Assembly (NCBI GenBank): GCA_938045805.1
Contig: CALIBL010000035.1
Location: 248,001 to 312,000, forward strand
Direction of reading: 5' to 3'
DNA: 64,000 nucleotides
From: an uncultured Rubripirellula sp.
Lineage (GTDB): Bacteria; Planctomycetota; Planctomycetia; Pirellulales; Pirellulaceae
Position numbers and translations under genes: made by a program. The notes beneath the pieces are model-generated. The model was not told the origin of the DNA, did no database searches, and was given only the letters and a program-made list of their open reading frames with translations. Shown piece by piece: positions 22,967 through 62,856 of this stretch (positions within the stretch are counted from its first letter, which is position 1; each line of letters begins with the position of its first letter).

Positions 22967-24796
22967 TTACAGATGACCTTCAAAAAAAAGGTGCATTTCG
23001 TCCACCATTTGATCAATCCAAGGCAGTCGGTTCCAGCAACCGTGCTTTCCGTCGGCAAATACCTTAACCTCGGTTTCGATCCCCAACGCGGTTAACTTAT
23101 CTCGAGACGGCTGGTTTCGCTGCGGTAAATCGTGCTCCCCCACCAGAAACTGAATGGGGCAGGTGTCCGCATCAATCTGCTTGAATGCATCCGCATCTCC
23201 GTAGAGATTTGGAGCCTGATCAACCGTGGCTCTCAACCACCGATTCGCGTTGGATTGCTCTGGAGCGTTGCGGGAACGATCCGCAACGGAACCCGTTAGC
23301 ATCTCCATCGGCCCGGCCATCACCACCGCCGCTTGCAAACGCGAACTTTCCTGCAAATCTCCAGCGCCGCCGAGGATTCGTGGATTCTTGCTACCCGATG
23401 CCATCAGGCCCACCAAATGACCGCCGGCAGACCCACCCACGGCACCAATCCTCGAGGGATCAAGTTGCAAGTCCTCAGCATTGGACCTCAGGTAACGGAC
23501 CGCGGCAAAACAATCATGAATCGCCGCAGGGAAGGCCGCTTCATCCGCCAAGCGATACTCAATGGCCGCAACGACATAGCCTTTCTGAGCTAGACGAATT
23601 GAGAGTGCCTGGAATTTCGTTTTATCTCCCGAATGCCAACCGCCACCGTGAACCACAACCAAAGCCGGCCTAAGTTCTTGGGAAGCATTGACGAGAGGTG
23701 AGTAGATGTCTGCGAGTAGCTTGCGATTGCCTTCCTTCGCGTACACCACATTCCAATTTGCGAGCACCTCATCAGGTACTGAGGTGCTCGGAACTCCTTG
23801 AGGTACCTGCTTCGGCACACTAGAGACTGGTTCTAGATTGAGATTAGCGGGTCGAGGTGAACAGCCGCTCACTTTCATGCGTTGACGATAAAGCCCCCCC
23901 ATACATGTCACATACAAAGAACGCATATCCGCGTCACCAAACGCACAGTTGATCGGCTTATTGGGACAAATGATTTTGTCAATCAATTCACCAGCAGGAT
24001 TCCAGATCCAAATTGCATCGGGGCCCGCACAATAAACGTTTCCAGCTCGGTCAATGGCCATCCCGTCGGCACCACGCGCCGGACCCGAATCCATCTTCGC
24101 AAACAACTCACCGCTCTCAAGTTGCCCGGGTAATGAAACCTCGAAAGAAATGATCTCCTTGGGAACGAATGAAGCCACGTACAAACTAGTCCCATCAGGA
24201 GATAACGTGATGCCGTTCGGAGTATCAATATCAGATGCCGCAACGCTAACCTTTCCGGAAGGATCAACGTACAGCACTTCACCTCGAGCCGTCATGGTGA
24301 TGAAAACACCACCCTCGTCGTCCACAACCAGATCATTGGGGCGATATGGCTTTGTATCAGCAGGAAGCTTTTCTGAAACGGTTCCAAAATGACAAGCGGT
24401 CTCTTTTCTCGCGCCATCAACATAAGCCAAGGATTGCTCGCCGTTATCCGATAGAAAAATGCGTCCGTGGTTGAAGAAACTGGCACTGATCCGACCAGCT
24501 CCCTCGATCAACACCTTCCACTGATCTGTTTTTGGCTGATAGCGAAAGACACGGTCTCCTTTGACATCCGGAACAATGAGTCCACTTCCATCCCAAGACG
24601 GGCCATCGGCAAGGCCAAAGTCGTCGCGAATCAGCTCCAGTTCACTTGACCGATCGACAGTGGTCTCTGAGGCGATACTCATCCCCGCGGCGGCGATCCA
24701 TAGAATCATGGACGCAAATACTGGCAACGTAATTTTGTTGAGTCGCACCGTGTGAAGCCTAACAATGGATTCATTTCTGTGAGAGTAAAAAAACAT
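22967..24796 (-). CDS. SMP-30/gluconolactonase-like propeller fused to BD-FAE-type esterase
   Basis: Two enzymes in one exported chain of about 609 residues. The first 330 residues form an SMP-30/gluconolactonase-type propeller (GLADGPSWDGSGLIVPDV, YRPNDLVVDDEGGVFITM, TPNGITLSPDGTSLYVASF, ADGMAIDRAGNVYC). The last 260 form an alpha/beta hydrolase of the BD-FAE/esterase group: oxyanion-hole HGGGWHSGDK, nucleophile in GGSAGGHL, acid in VGEHDLP and base His in DGKHGCW. This could open sugar lactones and remove acyl esters from the same substrate. The track's GTG start at 24913 lengthens an already long leader. ATG 24796 is my choice, with the hydrophobic segment ITLPVFASMILWIAAAGMSIAS acting as the signal. 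Confidence 0.82.
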   Translation of the reverse strand: MFFYSHRNESIVRLHTVRLNKITLPVFASMILWIAAAGMSIASETTVDRSSELELIRDDFGLADGPSWDGSGLIVPDVKGDRVFRYQPKTDQWKVLIEGAGRISASFFNHGRIFLSDNGEQSLAYVDGARKETACHFGTVSEKLPADTKPYRPNDLVVDDEGGVFITMTARGEVLYVDPSGKVSVAASDIDTPNGITLSPDGTSLYVASFVPKEIISFEVSLPGQLESGELFAKMDSGPARGADGMAIDRAGNVYCAGPDAIWIWNPAGELIDKIICPNKPINCAFGDADMRSLYVTCMGGLYRQRMKVSGCSPRPANLNLEPVSSVPKQVPQGVPSTSVPDEVLANWNVVYAKEGNRKLLADIYSPLVNASQELRPALVVVHGGGWHSGDKTKFQALSIRLAQKGYVVAAIEYRLADEAAFPAAIHDCFAAVRYLRSNAEDLQLDPSRIGAVGGSAGGHLVGLMASGSKNPRILGGAGDLQESSRLQAAVVMAGPMEMLTGSVADRSRNAPEQSNANRWLRATVDQAPNLYGDADAFKQIDADTCPIQFLVGEHDLPQRNQPSRDKLTALGIETEVKVFADGKHGCWNRLPWIDQMVDEMHLFFEGHL

Positions 24797-25004
24797 CTGT
24801 CGCTCTGGTTTTCGAAAAAGCTTAAGCAAGTGAGTGGCCTTGAAAGTTGACGCCTTCACCTTGATACCTGCTGCCAACGTGCGACAAAGTCCGGTGAAGT
24901 CATTCTCTGGCACACAGACTAGCCGATTGGGAAACTGCGATTTGGCGGGTCAGGCTACCGATCAGGGTCATCCGAAAAAAAAGAAAAGTGACCAAAATAA
25001 CTAA

Positions 25005-25032
25005 TTGACATATCGTGACCTTACGATATATT
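25005..25032 (+). promoter_or_regulatory. Promoter overlapping operator dyad of persulfide operon
   Basis: TTGACA (25005-25010) and TATATT (25027-25032) are separated by 16 bp and match sigma-70-type boxes. The interval is almost exactly filled by the dyad ATATCGT-GACCTT-ACGATAT at 25010-25029. A bound protein would block the polymerase, the usual geometry for a repressor. The start codon of the TauE/SafE gene is about 110 bp downstream. Confidence 0.65.
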
Positions 25033-25058
25033 GAGCATGTAGTCGTTGGGACAAAACA

Positions 25059-25080
25059 ATCGAAGCAATCCTGCTTCGAT
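25059..25080 (+). repeat. Perfect inverted repeat in operon leader
   Basis: ATCGAAGCA-ATCC-TGCTTCGAT forms perfect 9-bp arms with a 4-nt loop, placed between the two operator dyads in the presumed 5' leader. No T-run follows, so it is not a standard terminator. It could be an mRNA-stabilising hairpin or another protein site. Confidence 0.55.
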
Positions 25081-25096
25081 TCTCCTTCGGCCTAAC

Positions 25097-25116
25097 ATAT
25101 CGTCACTTCTCGATAT
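25097..25116 (+). promoter_or_regulatory. Second operator-like dyad
   Basis: ATATCG-TCACTTCT-CGATAT is 20 bp long, like the upstream dyad ATATCGTGACCTTACGATAT. The two agree at most positions (ATATCGT-x-AC-x-T-x3-CGATAT). It lies 24 bp before the start codon, just ahead of the AGGAGG ribosome site. Two similar dyads suggest cooperative repression by one regulator. ArsR-family persulfide sensors (BigR/SqrR type) control similar genes elsewhere, but no such regulator gene is in this window. Confidence 0.6.
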
Positions 25117-25140
25117 TTCGACCCTTAGCAGGAGGCATGA

Positions 25141-26040
25141 ATGGACACGCTTAGCTTTTTGGTTGGCGCGAGCCTAATCGGCCTGACCCTAGGACTAATC
25201 GGCTCCGGCGGCTCCGCGATCACCGTCCCTGTACTGGTCTATTTGGTTGGGCACGGGGGGAAGGTTTCGATTGCCGAGTCGATGGCGATTGTGGGGATCA
25301 TTTCACTCGTTGCAGCGGTTCCCTACGGTCGCAAACATCAGATTGACTGGCACAGCGTGGTCTATTTTGGTGTTCCTGGCATGCTGGGAACCTACATCGG
25401 TTCTTGGCTCGGCGGCCTAGCTAACGAGTTGATTCAGCTCATGCTCTTCGGCTTCATCTTGCTGATTGCCGCCGCATCGATGTTGCGTCGGACACAAACT
25501 GTCGGAGATACGCAAAGCGAACAACCAACATTCCATGCACCGAGTCAATCAACCGAAAAAGAGGCGGCAAGCGCGATCGCTGAAAGCACTCCCACAGCAC
25601 TGATACTTCTCGAGGGAATGGTTGTCGGATTGATCACAGGTTTTGTCGGAGTTGGTGGCGGATTTCTGATTGTGCCCGCACTGGTGATCCTTGGAAAACT
25701 CCCAATGCGGTTAGCCATCGGTACGAGTCTAGTAATCATTGCAGCAAAATCAGCCATTGGTTTTTGGAAGTACCAACATGACCTCATTCAGATCAATCTG
25801 TCGGTGGACCCCAATACGATCGCAATCTTTGCGTCGATTGGCATCTTGGGAAGCGTGGTCGGTCGCTTGATCAACACGCAGCTTAATCAAGCCAAACTCC
25901 AAACCCTCTTTGCCATCTTCCTGATTGCGATTGGCAGCCTTGTTATTGCAAAAGAAGGCCACAAACTCGTCAATCAAGTTAACAGTTCAACATTGACCGT
26001 AAACACTGTCCACAACAACATCAACAGCAAGGGAATCTAA
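25141..26040 (+). CDS. TauE/SafE family sulfite/sulfur-compound exporter
   Basis: A 299-residue integral inner-membrane protein with about eight hydrophobic helices in two repeated halves. Each half carries the glycine-rich family motif: GLTLGLIGSGGSAITVPVLVYL near the start and GLITGFVGVGGGFLIVPALVIL in the middle. Family members export sulfite, sulfoacetate or related sulfur anions. The start is supported by AGGAGG five bases before the ATG. The gene overlaps no neighbour but is only 2 bp from the persulfide dioxygenase gene downstream, so the two are surely cotranscribed. The pair would oxidise persulfide to sulfite or thiosulfate and expel the product. Expression is probably governed by the two dyads in the leader. 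Confidence 0.88.
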   Translation: MDTLSFLVGASLIGLTLGLIGSGGSAITVPVLVYLVGHGGKVSIAESMAIVGIISLVAAVPYGRKHQIDWHSVVYFGVPGMLGTYIGSWLGGLANELIQLMLFGFILLIAAASMLRRTQTVGDTQSEQPTFHAPSQSTEKEAASAIAESTPTALILLEGMVVGLITGFVGVGGGFLIVPALVILGKLPMRLAIGTSLVIIAAKSAIGFWKYQHDLIQINLSVDPNTIAIFASIGILGSVVGRLINTQLNQAKLQTLFAIFLIAIGSLVIAKEGHKLVNQVNSSTLTVNTVHNNINSKGI

Positions 26041-26042
26041 TC

Positions 26043-27476
26043 ATGTTACTTAAATACTTTTATGACATATCGCTTGCTCATGCTTCCTACCTGGTTGGAT
26101 GCCAACGATCCAAAACAGCAATCATTGTCGACCCAGGACGCGATGTTAAAACCTACCTTGACTACGCAAAAGGCGAAGGCCTTGTGATCTCGGCTGTCGC
26201 AGAAACACACATCCACGCCGACTATGTTTCAGGCGCAAGAGAATTAGCTGATCGTACCGGCGCTAAACTCTATGTCTCCGACGAAGGACCGACTGCCTGG
26301 AAGTACGAATACCTTGAAAACTACGATCATCAACGAGTTTTAGATGGCGATGAATTCAAAATCGGAAACCTCTTGTTTCAGGTGATTCACACACCAGGAC
26401 ACACACCTGAAAGCATCTCATTTCTATTGACCGATCAAGGTGGTGGTGCAGATGCACCGATGGGAATCTTCACTGGTGACTTCATTTTCGTCGGTTCCAT
26501 TGGTCGCCCTGACCTACTCGAGGAAGCAGCGGGCTTGGCTGGAACGGCCGATTCCGGAGCTCGCGAACTCTATCGATCGGTGGAGAGATTCGCTGCTTTG
26601 CCCGACTACCTTCAGGTCTGGCCTGCACACGGCGCGGGCAGCGCGTGCGGAAAAGGACTCGGCGCGATCCCCTCTTCCACTGTTGGCTACGAGAAGAAAT
26701 TCAATCCTGCCTTACATTTCACCGAAGAAGAATCTTTCGTCAATTACATCCTCGCGGACCAACCTGAAGCGCCCAAATACTTTGCCAATATGAAGCGGGT
26801 GAACAAGAAAGGACCAGAACTGCTGAAAAACTTACCACTACCTCAAAAGGCTCATCGCGAACAAATGATCGAATCGACTGACAAAGCATTCACGATCGAC
26901 CTTTCAGCAGCCAGCGACTACCAGAAATCTCACTTACCCGGGTCGATCAACATCCCCCTTGAGATGCTTGCAGCGTGGGCAGGATGGATCCTGGATGAAA
27001 ACACTCCTGTCTACTTACTCGGCGACGAATCACAATTCACGGAAGCGACAAGAATCCTGCATAAAATTGGAATTGATAACATCCAAGGCTACTTGTCGAA
27101 AAATGATCGGTCTCTAGCAAGCAACCTCCTACCGGCTTACAAGTCCATCACTCCGGAAACCCTTCAAGAGAAGCTGCATACTCAATCGGTTCAGCTCATC
27201 GATGTTCGATCAGATGCAGAGTGGAAAGAGGGAATCATCAGTGGTGCAGTGCATGACTTCCTGGGCCGACTCAATGAACACATTGATCAGTACGACATCG
27301 AGCAACCCATCGTCACTCAATGCCTTGGTGGTCCTCGCGCCGCGATCGCGGCAAGCCTTTTCCAACGTGCAGGATTTGAAACCTTTCACCTAACGGGCGG
27401 CTACAGCGCATGGAAATCGTTAAGCTATGAAACGGCAAAGCCTGAACAACCCGTCACAACCACCACTGCCGCGTAA
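26043..27476 (+). CDS. Persulfide dioxygenase-rhodanese fusion (CstB-like)
   Basis: A 477-residue cytoplasmic enzyme. Residues of about 1-250 are a metallo-beta-lactamase-fold persulfide dioxygenase of the ETHE1 group. The motif is T-H56-I-H58-A-D60-Y61, followed by the ligand His in HTPGHTPESISF and Asp in FTGDFIFVGSIGRPDLL. These residues hold the single iron that oxidises persulfide sulfur to sulfite. Two rhodanese domains follow. The first (about 275-365) lacks a catalytic Cys. The second (about 370-460) has C427 in TQCLGGPRAA. This arrangement matches CstB-type enzymes that convert persulfide to thiosulfate. It is cotranscribed with the TauE/SafE exporter. Tyr at the last position of the HxHxDH motif fits this subgroup, where Phe/Tyr is common, and is not a defect. 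Confidence 0.9.
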   Translation: MLLKYFYDISLAHASYLVGCQRSKTAIIVDPGRDVKTYLDYAKGEGLVISAVAETHIHADYVSGARELADRTGAKLYVSDEGPTAWKYEYLENYDHQRVLDGDEFKIGNLLFQVIHTPGHTPESISFLLTDQGGGADAPMGIFTGDFIFVGSIGRPDLLEEAAGLAGTADSGARELYRSVERFAALPDYLQVWPAHGAGSACGKGLGAIPSSTVGYEKKFNPALHFTEEESFVNYILADQPEAPKYFANMKRVNKKGPELLKNLPLPQKAHREQMIESTDKAFTIDLSAASDYQKSHLPGSINIPLEMLAAWAGWILDENTPVYLLGDESQFTEATRILHKIGIDNIQGYLSKNDRSLASNLLPAYKSITPETLQEKLHTQSVQLIDVRSDAEWKEGIISGAVHDFLGRLNEHIDQYDIEQPIVTQCLGGPRAAIAASLFQRAGFETFHLTGGYSAWKSLSYETAKPEQPVTTTTAA

Positions 27477-61806: not shown

Positions 61807-62856
61807 CTATTGAGCACTCAACGTTAGATCGGCAAGATAGATTGCAGTTACCACCTTACCATTTTCATCTCGTTCATGACTTGAGTACCAGGAAACCATT
61901 GCCTGACCTTCACCTAGGTCAATCAACCCCGGGTAGGAGTTATCACCGCCGCTCGGTAATTCTGCGAACTCATGTAGTTGATTGTCTTGCAGCCAACACA
62001 AGGAGGTTCGTGGCCCATCGGAGGTCACCCTTCGACCACCGACCACCCATCGGTCGCCCCAGCGGGCCAGCAGGGGTCCGCCGATGTAGCGATCTAAATC
62101 CGTTCGTTCCCAAGAATCATACGGAGGGTCGGAACGCACAATCTCTGCGGCGTCACCACCACGCCGGGCAATCCCAACCACGCTTCCGTTTTGCAAGAAT
62201 TGAAAAGCGGTTTCGTCACCTCGAGTCTCCTGAAACAATCCCGTTTTGCGCCATGTGAGACCATCTTCACTTTCTAGCATTGCGGATTCTACATCTGGCC
62301 CCTCACCCCGCGGTCGCACGTCAAAGAGATGCTTACGTCTCCCACAGAGATAAGCCTTGCCGCCAAATTCATTCGCTTTCCAAATGTAATGCCCGAAGGT
62401 ACCTTCGAGCATCTGTGGATCTGACCAATGGTCGCCGTCTTGGGTAAACACCGCATATCCCAAATGCAAATTCAAGTCATAATCCTTGACTGCAATCGTC
62501 GATTCACCGCTGTACCAAGTTCCGGTGTAAACAAAAAGCTTGTCCTTGAAAACTAGAAAATGAGGATCCCGAGTATCACGCAGAGGAACAGAAAACTGAT
62601 GCACTTTCTCCCAGTTCAAGCGATCATCGCTCCTAAGAACAATGATTGAGGCAGTGGGATGCACCATGTGACCGTCAGGGCAACTTCGGAAAGCCAGGTA
62701 ATACTGCCCCCGAAACTTAACGAGATCGGTAAACGCATTGTGTTCACCGTTATCGAAAACTTTTCTTAGGTGACTTACGTTGACTTGCGGTAGGTCCTCA
62801 GCAACTGCCAGATACCCCACAAACACAATCGACAACAAGAAGAAAGATCGCAACAT
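61807..62856 (-). CDS. Exported BNR/sialidase-like glycoside hydrolase-type propeller
   Basis: A 349-residue protein from ATG 62856, with signal peptide MLRSFFLLSIVFVGYLAVAE. The fold looks like a five- or six-bladed sialidase propeller: FRGQYYLAFRSCPDG, ASIIVLRSDDRLNWEKV, ESEDGLTWRKTG (an Asp-box-like turn), GRRKHLFDVRPRG, IVRSDPPYDSWERT. The track's ORF extends 80 codons further upstream into the DUF389 gene, without a reason to start there. The family includes exo-sialidases and other secreted glycosidases; the catalytic set cannot be verified. Confidence 0.78.
   Translation of the reverse strand: MLRSFFLLSIVFVGYLAVAEDLPQVNVSHLRKVFDNGEHNAFTDLVKFRGQYYLAFRSCPDGHMVHPTASIIVLRSDDRLNWEKVHQFSVPLRDTRDPHFLVFKDKLFVYTGTWYSGESTIAVKDYDLNLHLGYAVFTQDGDHWSDPQMLEGTFGHYIWKANEFGGKAYLCGRRKHLFDVRPRGEGPDVESAMLESEDGLTWRKTGLFQETRGDETAFQFLQNGSVVGIARRGGDAAEIVRSDPPYDSWERTDLDRYIGGPLLARWGDRWVVGGRRVTSDGPRTSLCWLQDNQLHEFAELPSGGDNSYPGLIDLGEGQAMVSWYSSHERDENGKVVTAIYLADLTLSAQ

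Follow-up and report, generated by a model that had tools for sequence, protein, structure and literature searches.

Two putative ArsR operators in the leader of a planctomycete persulfide dioxygenase operon, the second of them positioned behind a T-tract in relatives

The operon and its leader

The locus studied here lies within a stretch of 64,000 nucleotides, referred to below as the window, from contig CALIBL010000035.1 of an uncultured Rubripirellula sp. It consists of an operon of two genes—an exporter of the TauE/SafE family followed by a CstB-like persulfide dioxygenase—and of a leader that carries a core promoter (P1), two dyads designated O1 and O2, and, between the dyads, a hairpin and a pyrimidine tract (Table 1). 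Concerning the dioxygenase, its nearest solved structures are 3tp9 (2e-135) and 3r2u (3e-109), both full length. The dyad O1 occupies the spacer of P1, and O2 is positioned downstream of the transcription start, the latter being a predicted position; in the window, O2 lies 65 bp past the end of the −10 element, ends 13 bp 5′ of the ribosome site and is followed after 24 bp by the start codon of TauE. The re-reading of the sequence thus bore out the places given to the two dyads in the original prediction, one between TTGACA and TATATT and the other just before the ribosome site. Divergently from the operon, the minus strand carries a gene (22967–24913) for a fusion of a gluconolactonase-like domain with a BD-FAE esterase domain, which could also be influenced by O1.

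Table 1 Features of the operon, its leader and the candidate regulator gene (window positions, except for the last line, which refers to contig C52 of the same genome)
Feature	Position	Strand	Details
Core promoter P1	25005–25032	+	TTGACA 25005–25010, spacer 16 bp, TATATT 25027–25032; 11/12 to consensus
Putative operator O1	25010–25029	+	ATATCGTGACCTTACGATAT, i.e. ATATCG-TGACCTTA-CGATAT, inside the P1 spacer; 27.3 bits, relatives-only matrix
Leader hairpin	25058–25081	+	AATCGAAGCA-ATCC-TGCTTCGATT; MFE −12.7 to −13.0 kcal/mol, z −4.8
Pyrimidine tract	25080–25088	+	TTCTCCTTC, in the place of the T-tract of relatives; from −17 to −9 with respect to O2, degenerate
Putative operator O2	25097–25116	+	ATATCGTCACTTCTCGATAT, i.e. 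ATATCG-TCACTTCT-CGATAT, then TTCGA 25117–25121; 24.1 bits, O1 matrix
Ribosome site	25130–25135	+	AGGAGG, from sequence
TauE/SafE family sulfite/sulfur-compound exporter	25141–26040	+	PF01925, E 1.5e-44
CstB-like persulfide dioxygenase	26043–27476	+	two rhodanese domains; PF00753 and PF00581
ArsR-family gene	C52:142–474	−	111 residues; PF01022 and PF12840 above cut-off

Rarity and conservation of the site

It should be pointed out that a search allowing up to three mismatches found two matches in the window against 2.0 expected, i.e. the chance level, and therefore proves nothing by itself. The exact pattern ATATCG-N8-CGATAT is present in only three copies in the genome of 4.8 Mb (none for the reversed control), two of them being O1 and O2 and the third residing in the promoter of an arsR gene on contig C52; a search for further members of the regulon, using the core-extended pattern at one mismatch, found none in the same genome. 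Both window dyads were also scored with an operator matrix trained exclusively on the sites of relatives, the window having been left out; out of 3 million random 20-mers, none reached either value (Table 1). Elsewhere in the window, AGATCGCAACATCACAATAC at positions 62845–62864 matches the operator matrix less well, with 16.0 bits, which is in the low range of the training sites; it is found near the 3′ end of a minus-strand gene, overlaps the listed start of another one and is possibly due to chance.

The loci of relatives were collected with the dioxygenase sequence as the query. The site O1, with at most two mismatches, precedes arsR in 48 of the 53 loci (0.9% in shuffled sequence) and was found in all 23 held-out loci of the class. 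The layout TTGAC-[site]-ATTGA is kept in 50 O1 sites of relatives as well as in the organism's own arsR promoter, and besides these two flanks the inner A..T of the site is also conserved; exact sites in relatives that lack this inner A..T look like chance matches and were set aside. It may be added that O1 of relatives is preceded by an A-rich stretch (positions −17 to −13), which could represent either an UP-like element or a part of the operator context.

Both sites are present together in several leaders without arsR, i.e. those of the window, G010, R. rubra (L009), L022, G030 and G012. The last of these genomes has, on its contig C4 (L162), a second dioxygenase locus with no TauE directly upstream, the leader of which contains both sites and a T-tract. 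The presence of the dyad upstream of the orthologous operons, the absence of which had been named as grounds for giving up the original prediction, speaks in favour of the latter.

The candidate regulator

An ArsR-family gene has the third exact copy (C52:513–532) in its promoter, where it is embedded in the same layout as in the window, TTGACA-[site]-TATATTGA, i.e. TTGACATATCG...CGATATATTGA. No other short ArsR gene was found in the genome, the other match to PF01022 being partial and contained in a frame of 276 codons. A gene for a YgaP-like rhodanese begins 108 bp past arsR, after which the contig ends; G007 and G010, which are near relatives, have the pair of arsR and rhodanese genes complete. 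Among the loci collected with the dioxygenase sequence, the arsR orthologues either directly precede the genes for the YgaP-like rhodanese, TauE and the persulfide dioxygenase or share an operon with them. Orthologues of this ArsR are present in 151 of the 298 genomes sampled from the class. Since in the present clade arsR lies apart from the TauE and dioxygenase genes, the operon has to be controlled in trans.

Taken together, both dyads are very probably the docking sites of this small repressor encoded elsewhere in the genome, as judged from the sequences compared. The original prediction had read the dyads as a repressor signature, had considered an ArsR-type regulator and, seeing none encoded nearby, had left room for a trans-encoded sensor; it had also proposed to search the genome for the dyad and for a regulator gene bearing it. 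All this agrees well with conserved putative operators tied to one ArsR, whose gene on another contig carries the very same site and is thus a suitable candidate. That the dyads are bound by a different regulator, the link to the ArsR from C52 being a coincidence, appears very improbable, given that the site follows arsR across the class even where the neighbouring genes differ.

With regard to its classification, the ArsR from C52 scored 78.6 bits with the NCBIfam model of the ArsR/SmtB metalloregulator subfamily, above the cut-off of 55, and 56.7 bits with the BigR equivalog model, below the cut-off of 155. The predicted structural model of the orthologue from L018 (pLDDT 89.7) matches the structures of SmtB, HlyU, BigR and SqrR, i.e. 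the ArsR/SmtB winged-helix fold, with 3pqj, the 6o8 series of SqrR and YgaV (3cuo) being among the matches. In the alignment with BigR (3pqj), the cysteine of its helix α2 falls on Gln40, a residue invariant in 29 orthologues, and the second sensing position of BigR, in α5, corresponds to Ile106 when the alignment is extended. The ArsR from C52 has its invariant cysteines in α1 (C26), behind the recognition helix (C73) and in α5 (C100), which suggests a sensing chemistry other than that of BigR/SqrR.

The comparison with the operators points in the same direction. The SqrR/YgaV operator ATTC-N8-GAAT (PMC9774250) has, like the present one, two half-sites with a spacer of 8 bp and overlaps the promoter; the half-site here is, however, ATATCG, in keeping with the difference from BigR/SqrR sites already suspected in the original prediction. 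The ArsR was therefore—based on its cysteines, score and operator—not filed as a member of the BigR/SqrR group. The features in common with BigR, SqrR, YgaV and sHdrR are the ArsR fold and the target genes, these being rhodanese, YgaP, TauE or dioxygenase, and by such gene context the ArsR may work in a similar way.

It is the context of the target genes, too, that points to persulfide as the probable inducer. An ArsR sensing a metal or a general oxidant instead seems unlikely, even though the positions of the BigR/SqrR cysteines are not preserved, C73 occupies the position of a ligand in CmtR-type sensors and the ArsR sensors are diverse in general; the targets, namely the persulfide dioxygenase, rhodaneses and TauE, include no metal transporter. 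A related gene set is known from the cst operon of Staphylococcus aureus, consisting of CstR, CstB and TauE. The CstB-like fusion of a persulfide dioxygenase with two rhodaneses is accompanied by TauE in both cases, whereas the linked regulator here belongs to the ArsR family and CstR is a CsoR-family protein.

The second putative operator and the T-tract

In relatives, O2 is found downstream of arsR or, where arsR is absent, in the leader. It has a consensus of its own, with TCA after the left half-site and NWCGA after the right one; the window O2, whose core is of the O2 type (TCAC) and whose flank conforms to NWCGA, reached 32.0 in the leave-one-out scoring with the O2 matrix, i.e. one of the top scores. 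Judging from these sequence features, O2 is a conserved element in its own right, not a mere second copy of O1. The flank NWCGA was also considered as a further half-site or a sigma-factor element, both of which were dropped; it is better read as the outer arm of a wider putative operator, comparable to TTGAC...ATTGA at O1.

The order of arsR, T-tract, O2 and enzyme genes would suit two transcription units: the enzyme genes would have a second promoter at O2, controlled by ArsR, which the T-tract would insulate from the transcription of arsR; moreover, a TTGAC-like flank is retained at some O2 sites (L030). The logo of O2 gives no support to this possibility: there is no conserved −35 element, and position 23, the last base of the −10 element, is C in 78% of the O2 sites against T in 88% at O1, so that O2 is not seen as a second promoter. 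The window itself leaves just 24 bp up to the start codon, with no promoter called there, and a promoter at O2 is thus considered quite unlikely.

A further property of O2 in relatives is its position behind a T-tract. At least six of the seven bases at −15 to −9 relative to O2 are T in 30 of the 42 loci of relatives, compared with 1.1% at random positions. Among the held-out loci, the T-tract precedes O2 in 16 of 22, the spacing being exactly 8 bp in 13 of the 16 measurable cases. A search of 392 genomes from the phylum for the strict pattern T4-N8-O2 gave matches in 6 of them, and its reversed control gave no match. The sequence of the 8 bases separating the T-tract from O2 is not conserved, which speaks against mere recent ancestry as the cause of the phasing. 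The two copies of one dyad in the original prediction stand as matching sites, yet only O1 is a putative promoter operator and O2 is a separate leader element with its own sequence; its fixed position with respect to the T-tract of relatives had been overlooked.

A simpler possibility is that both sites are ArsR operators, O2 merely strengthening the repression in a cooperative or looped arrangement with O1, and that the T-tract is the terminator of arsR. Paired operators are common, and in the leaders without arsR the two sites are only 87–198 bp apart; these distances, however, are not all in one helical phase. Furthermore, the distance between the T-tract and O2 stays at 8 bp in the arsR-containing loci while that between O1 and O2 varies widely, as does the distance from the stop codon of arsR to the T-tract (10 to 113 in the held-out loci), and the sequence type of O2 is distinct from that of O1. 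This possibility is therefore held to be unlikely.

As far as termination is concerned, hairpins before the T-tract of relatives reach a ΔG of −10 or lower in 50% of cases against 23% for control T-runs (p = 0.03), an enrichment that is only moderate. Conservation is higher for the T-tract than for the hairpin, which weakens a purely terminator-based reading. The hairpin in the window is strong, but it is followed by TTCTCCTTC and the strict terminator scan of the leader was negative on the plus strand, so no working terminator is claimed in the window. The same scan called the hairpin on the minus strand only, where it is terminator-like (AATCGAAGCAGGATTGCTTCGATT GTTTTGTCCC) and may stop antisense transcription. 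No known RNA family was recognized in the leader, the best E-value of 0.19 being far below the gathering score.

Proposed mechanism and related systems

The explanation that we prefer, and which as a whole seems probable rather than secure, assumes one trans-encoded ArsR that would block initiation at O1 and form an elongation roadblock at O2, persulfide releasing both. The sequences themselves supply the conserved sites with their geometry as well as the ArsR linked to them, and from these we infer the binding, the roadblock and the inducer. The ArsR from C52, bound at O1 in the spacer of P1, would exclude RNA polymerase; since the promoter of arsR contains this site too, we propose that arsR is autoregulated. 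Within the transcribed leader, the ArsR on O2 would act as a roadblock for those polymerases that have escaped from O1. The front of RNA polymerase is about 14–18 bp ahead of the active site. In relatives, the T-tract would be positioned so that this front meets O2 during the synthesis of the U-tract, which would weaken the RNA–DNA hybrid at the moment of stalling and thus favour release. Finally, sulfane sulfur (persulfide) would modify the invariant cysteines, both sites would be freed, and TauE and the dioxygenase would be switched on.

This explanation is preferred also because an engineered second ArsR site 3′ of arsR reduces the background in E. coli (PMC3918153) and ArsR is named among roadblock proteins (PMC10310618); in general, a stalled polymerase is largely removed by Mfd (PMC4132739). 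Several observations were counted against it: the degenerate tract of the window together with the negative plus-strand terminator scan, the moderate hairpin enrichment mentioned above, the T-run of the nearest relative, G010, which is 13 bp from O2, and the absence of O2 from the organism's own arsR–rhodanese operon on C52. A further-reaching version, possible but rather doubtful, would be a repressor-gated terminator in Planctomycetes, at which release at the U-tract would occur only with ArsR on O2, persulfide opening both gates.

Repressor roadblocks have been described for LacI, PurR, GalR, CcpA and CodY as well as for the engineered arsR-ABS reporter of E. coli (PMC10310618, PMC3918153), all sharing with the present case a repressor site within the transcribed region. 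The arsR-ABS reporter has, in addition, the same order of promoter, arsR, second ArsR site and output gene; in contrast to that construct, the arrangement described here is natural, conserved across the class and phased to a T-tract. A literature search, with most subscription journals outside its range, returned no report of a natural conserved roadblock site phased to a T-tract, no paper on a planctomycete persulfide sensor of the ArsR family and nothing relevant on ATATCG-N8-CGATAT as a published ArsR site.

Persulfide detoxification in Planctomycetes thus gains a candidate regulator, a putative operator and a possible regulon of two promoters, and the ArsR family a subfamily whose cysteines differ from those of the persulfide sensors known so far and which roughly half of the genomes sampled from the class contain. 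The phasing of T-tract and operator offers a natural and directly testable case of one repressor possibly acting at both initiation and elongation, a layout similar to that which synthetic biologists have built deliberately. The elements also occur with another gene: in L183 (positions 905–1480; G103, related at the level of the phylum only), one of the loci that matched the strict T4-N8-O2 pattern, arsR, the T-tract and O2 are followed by a DSP-PTPase-like gene, not by that for a YgaP-like rhodanese.
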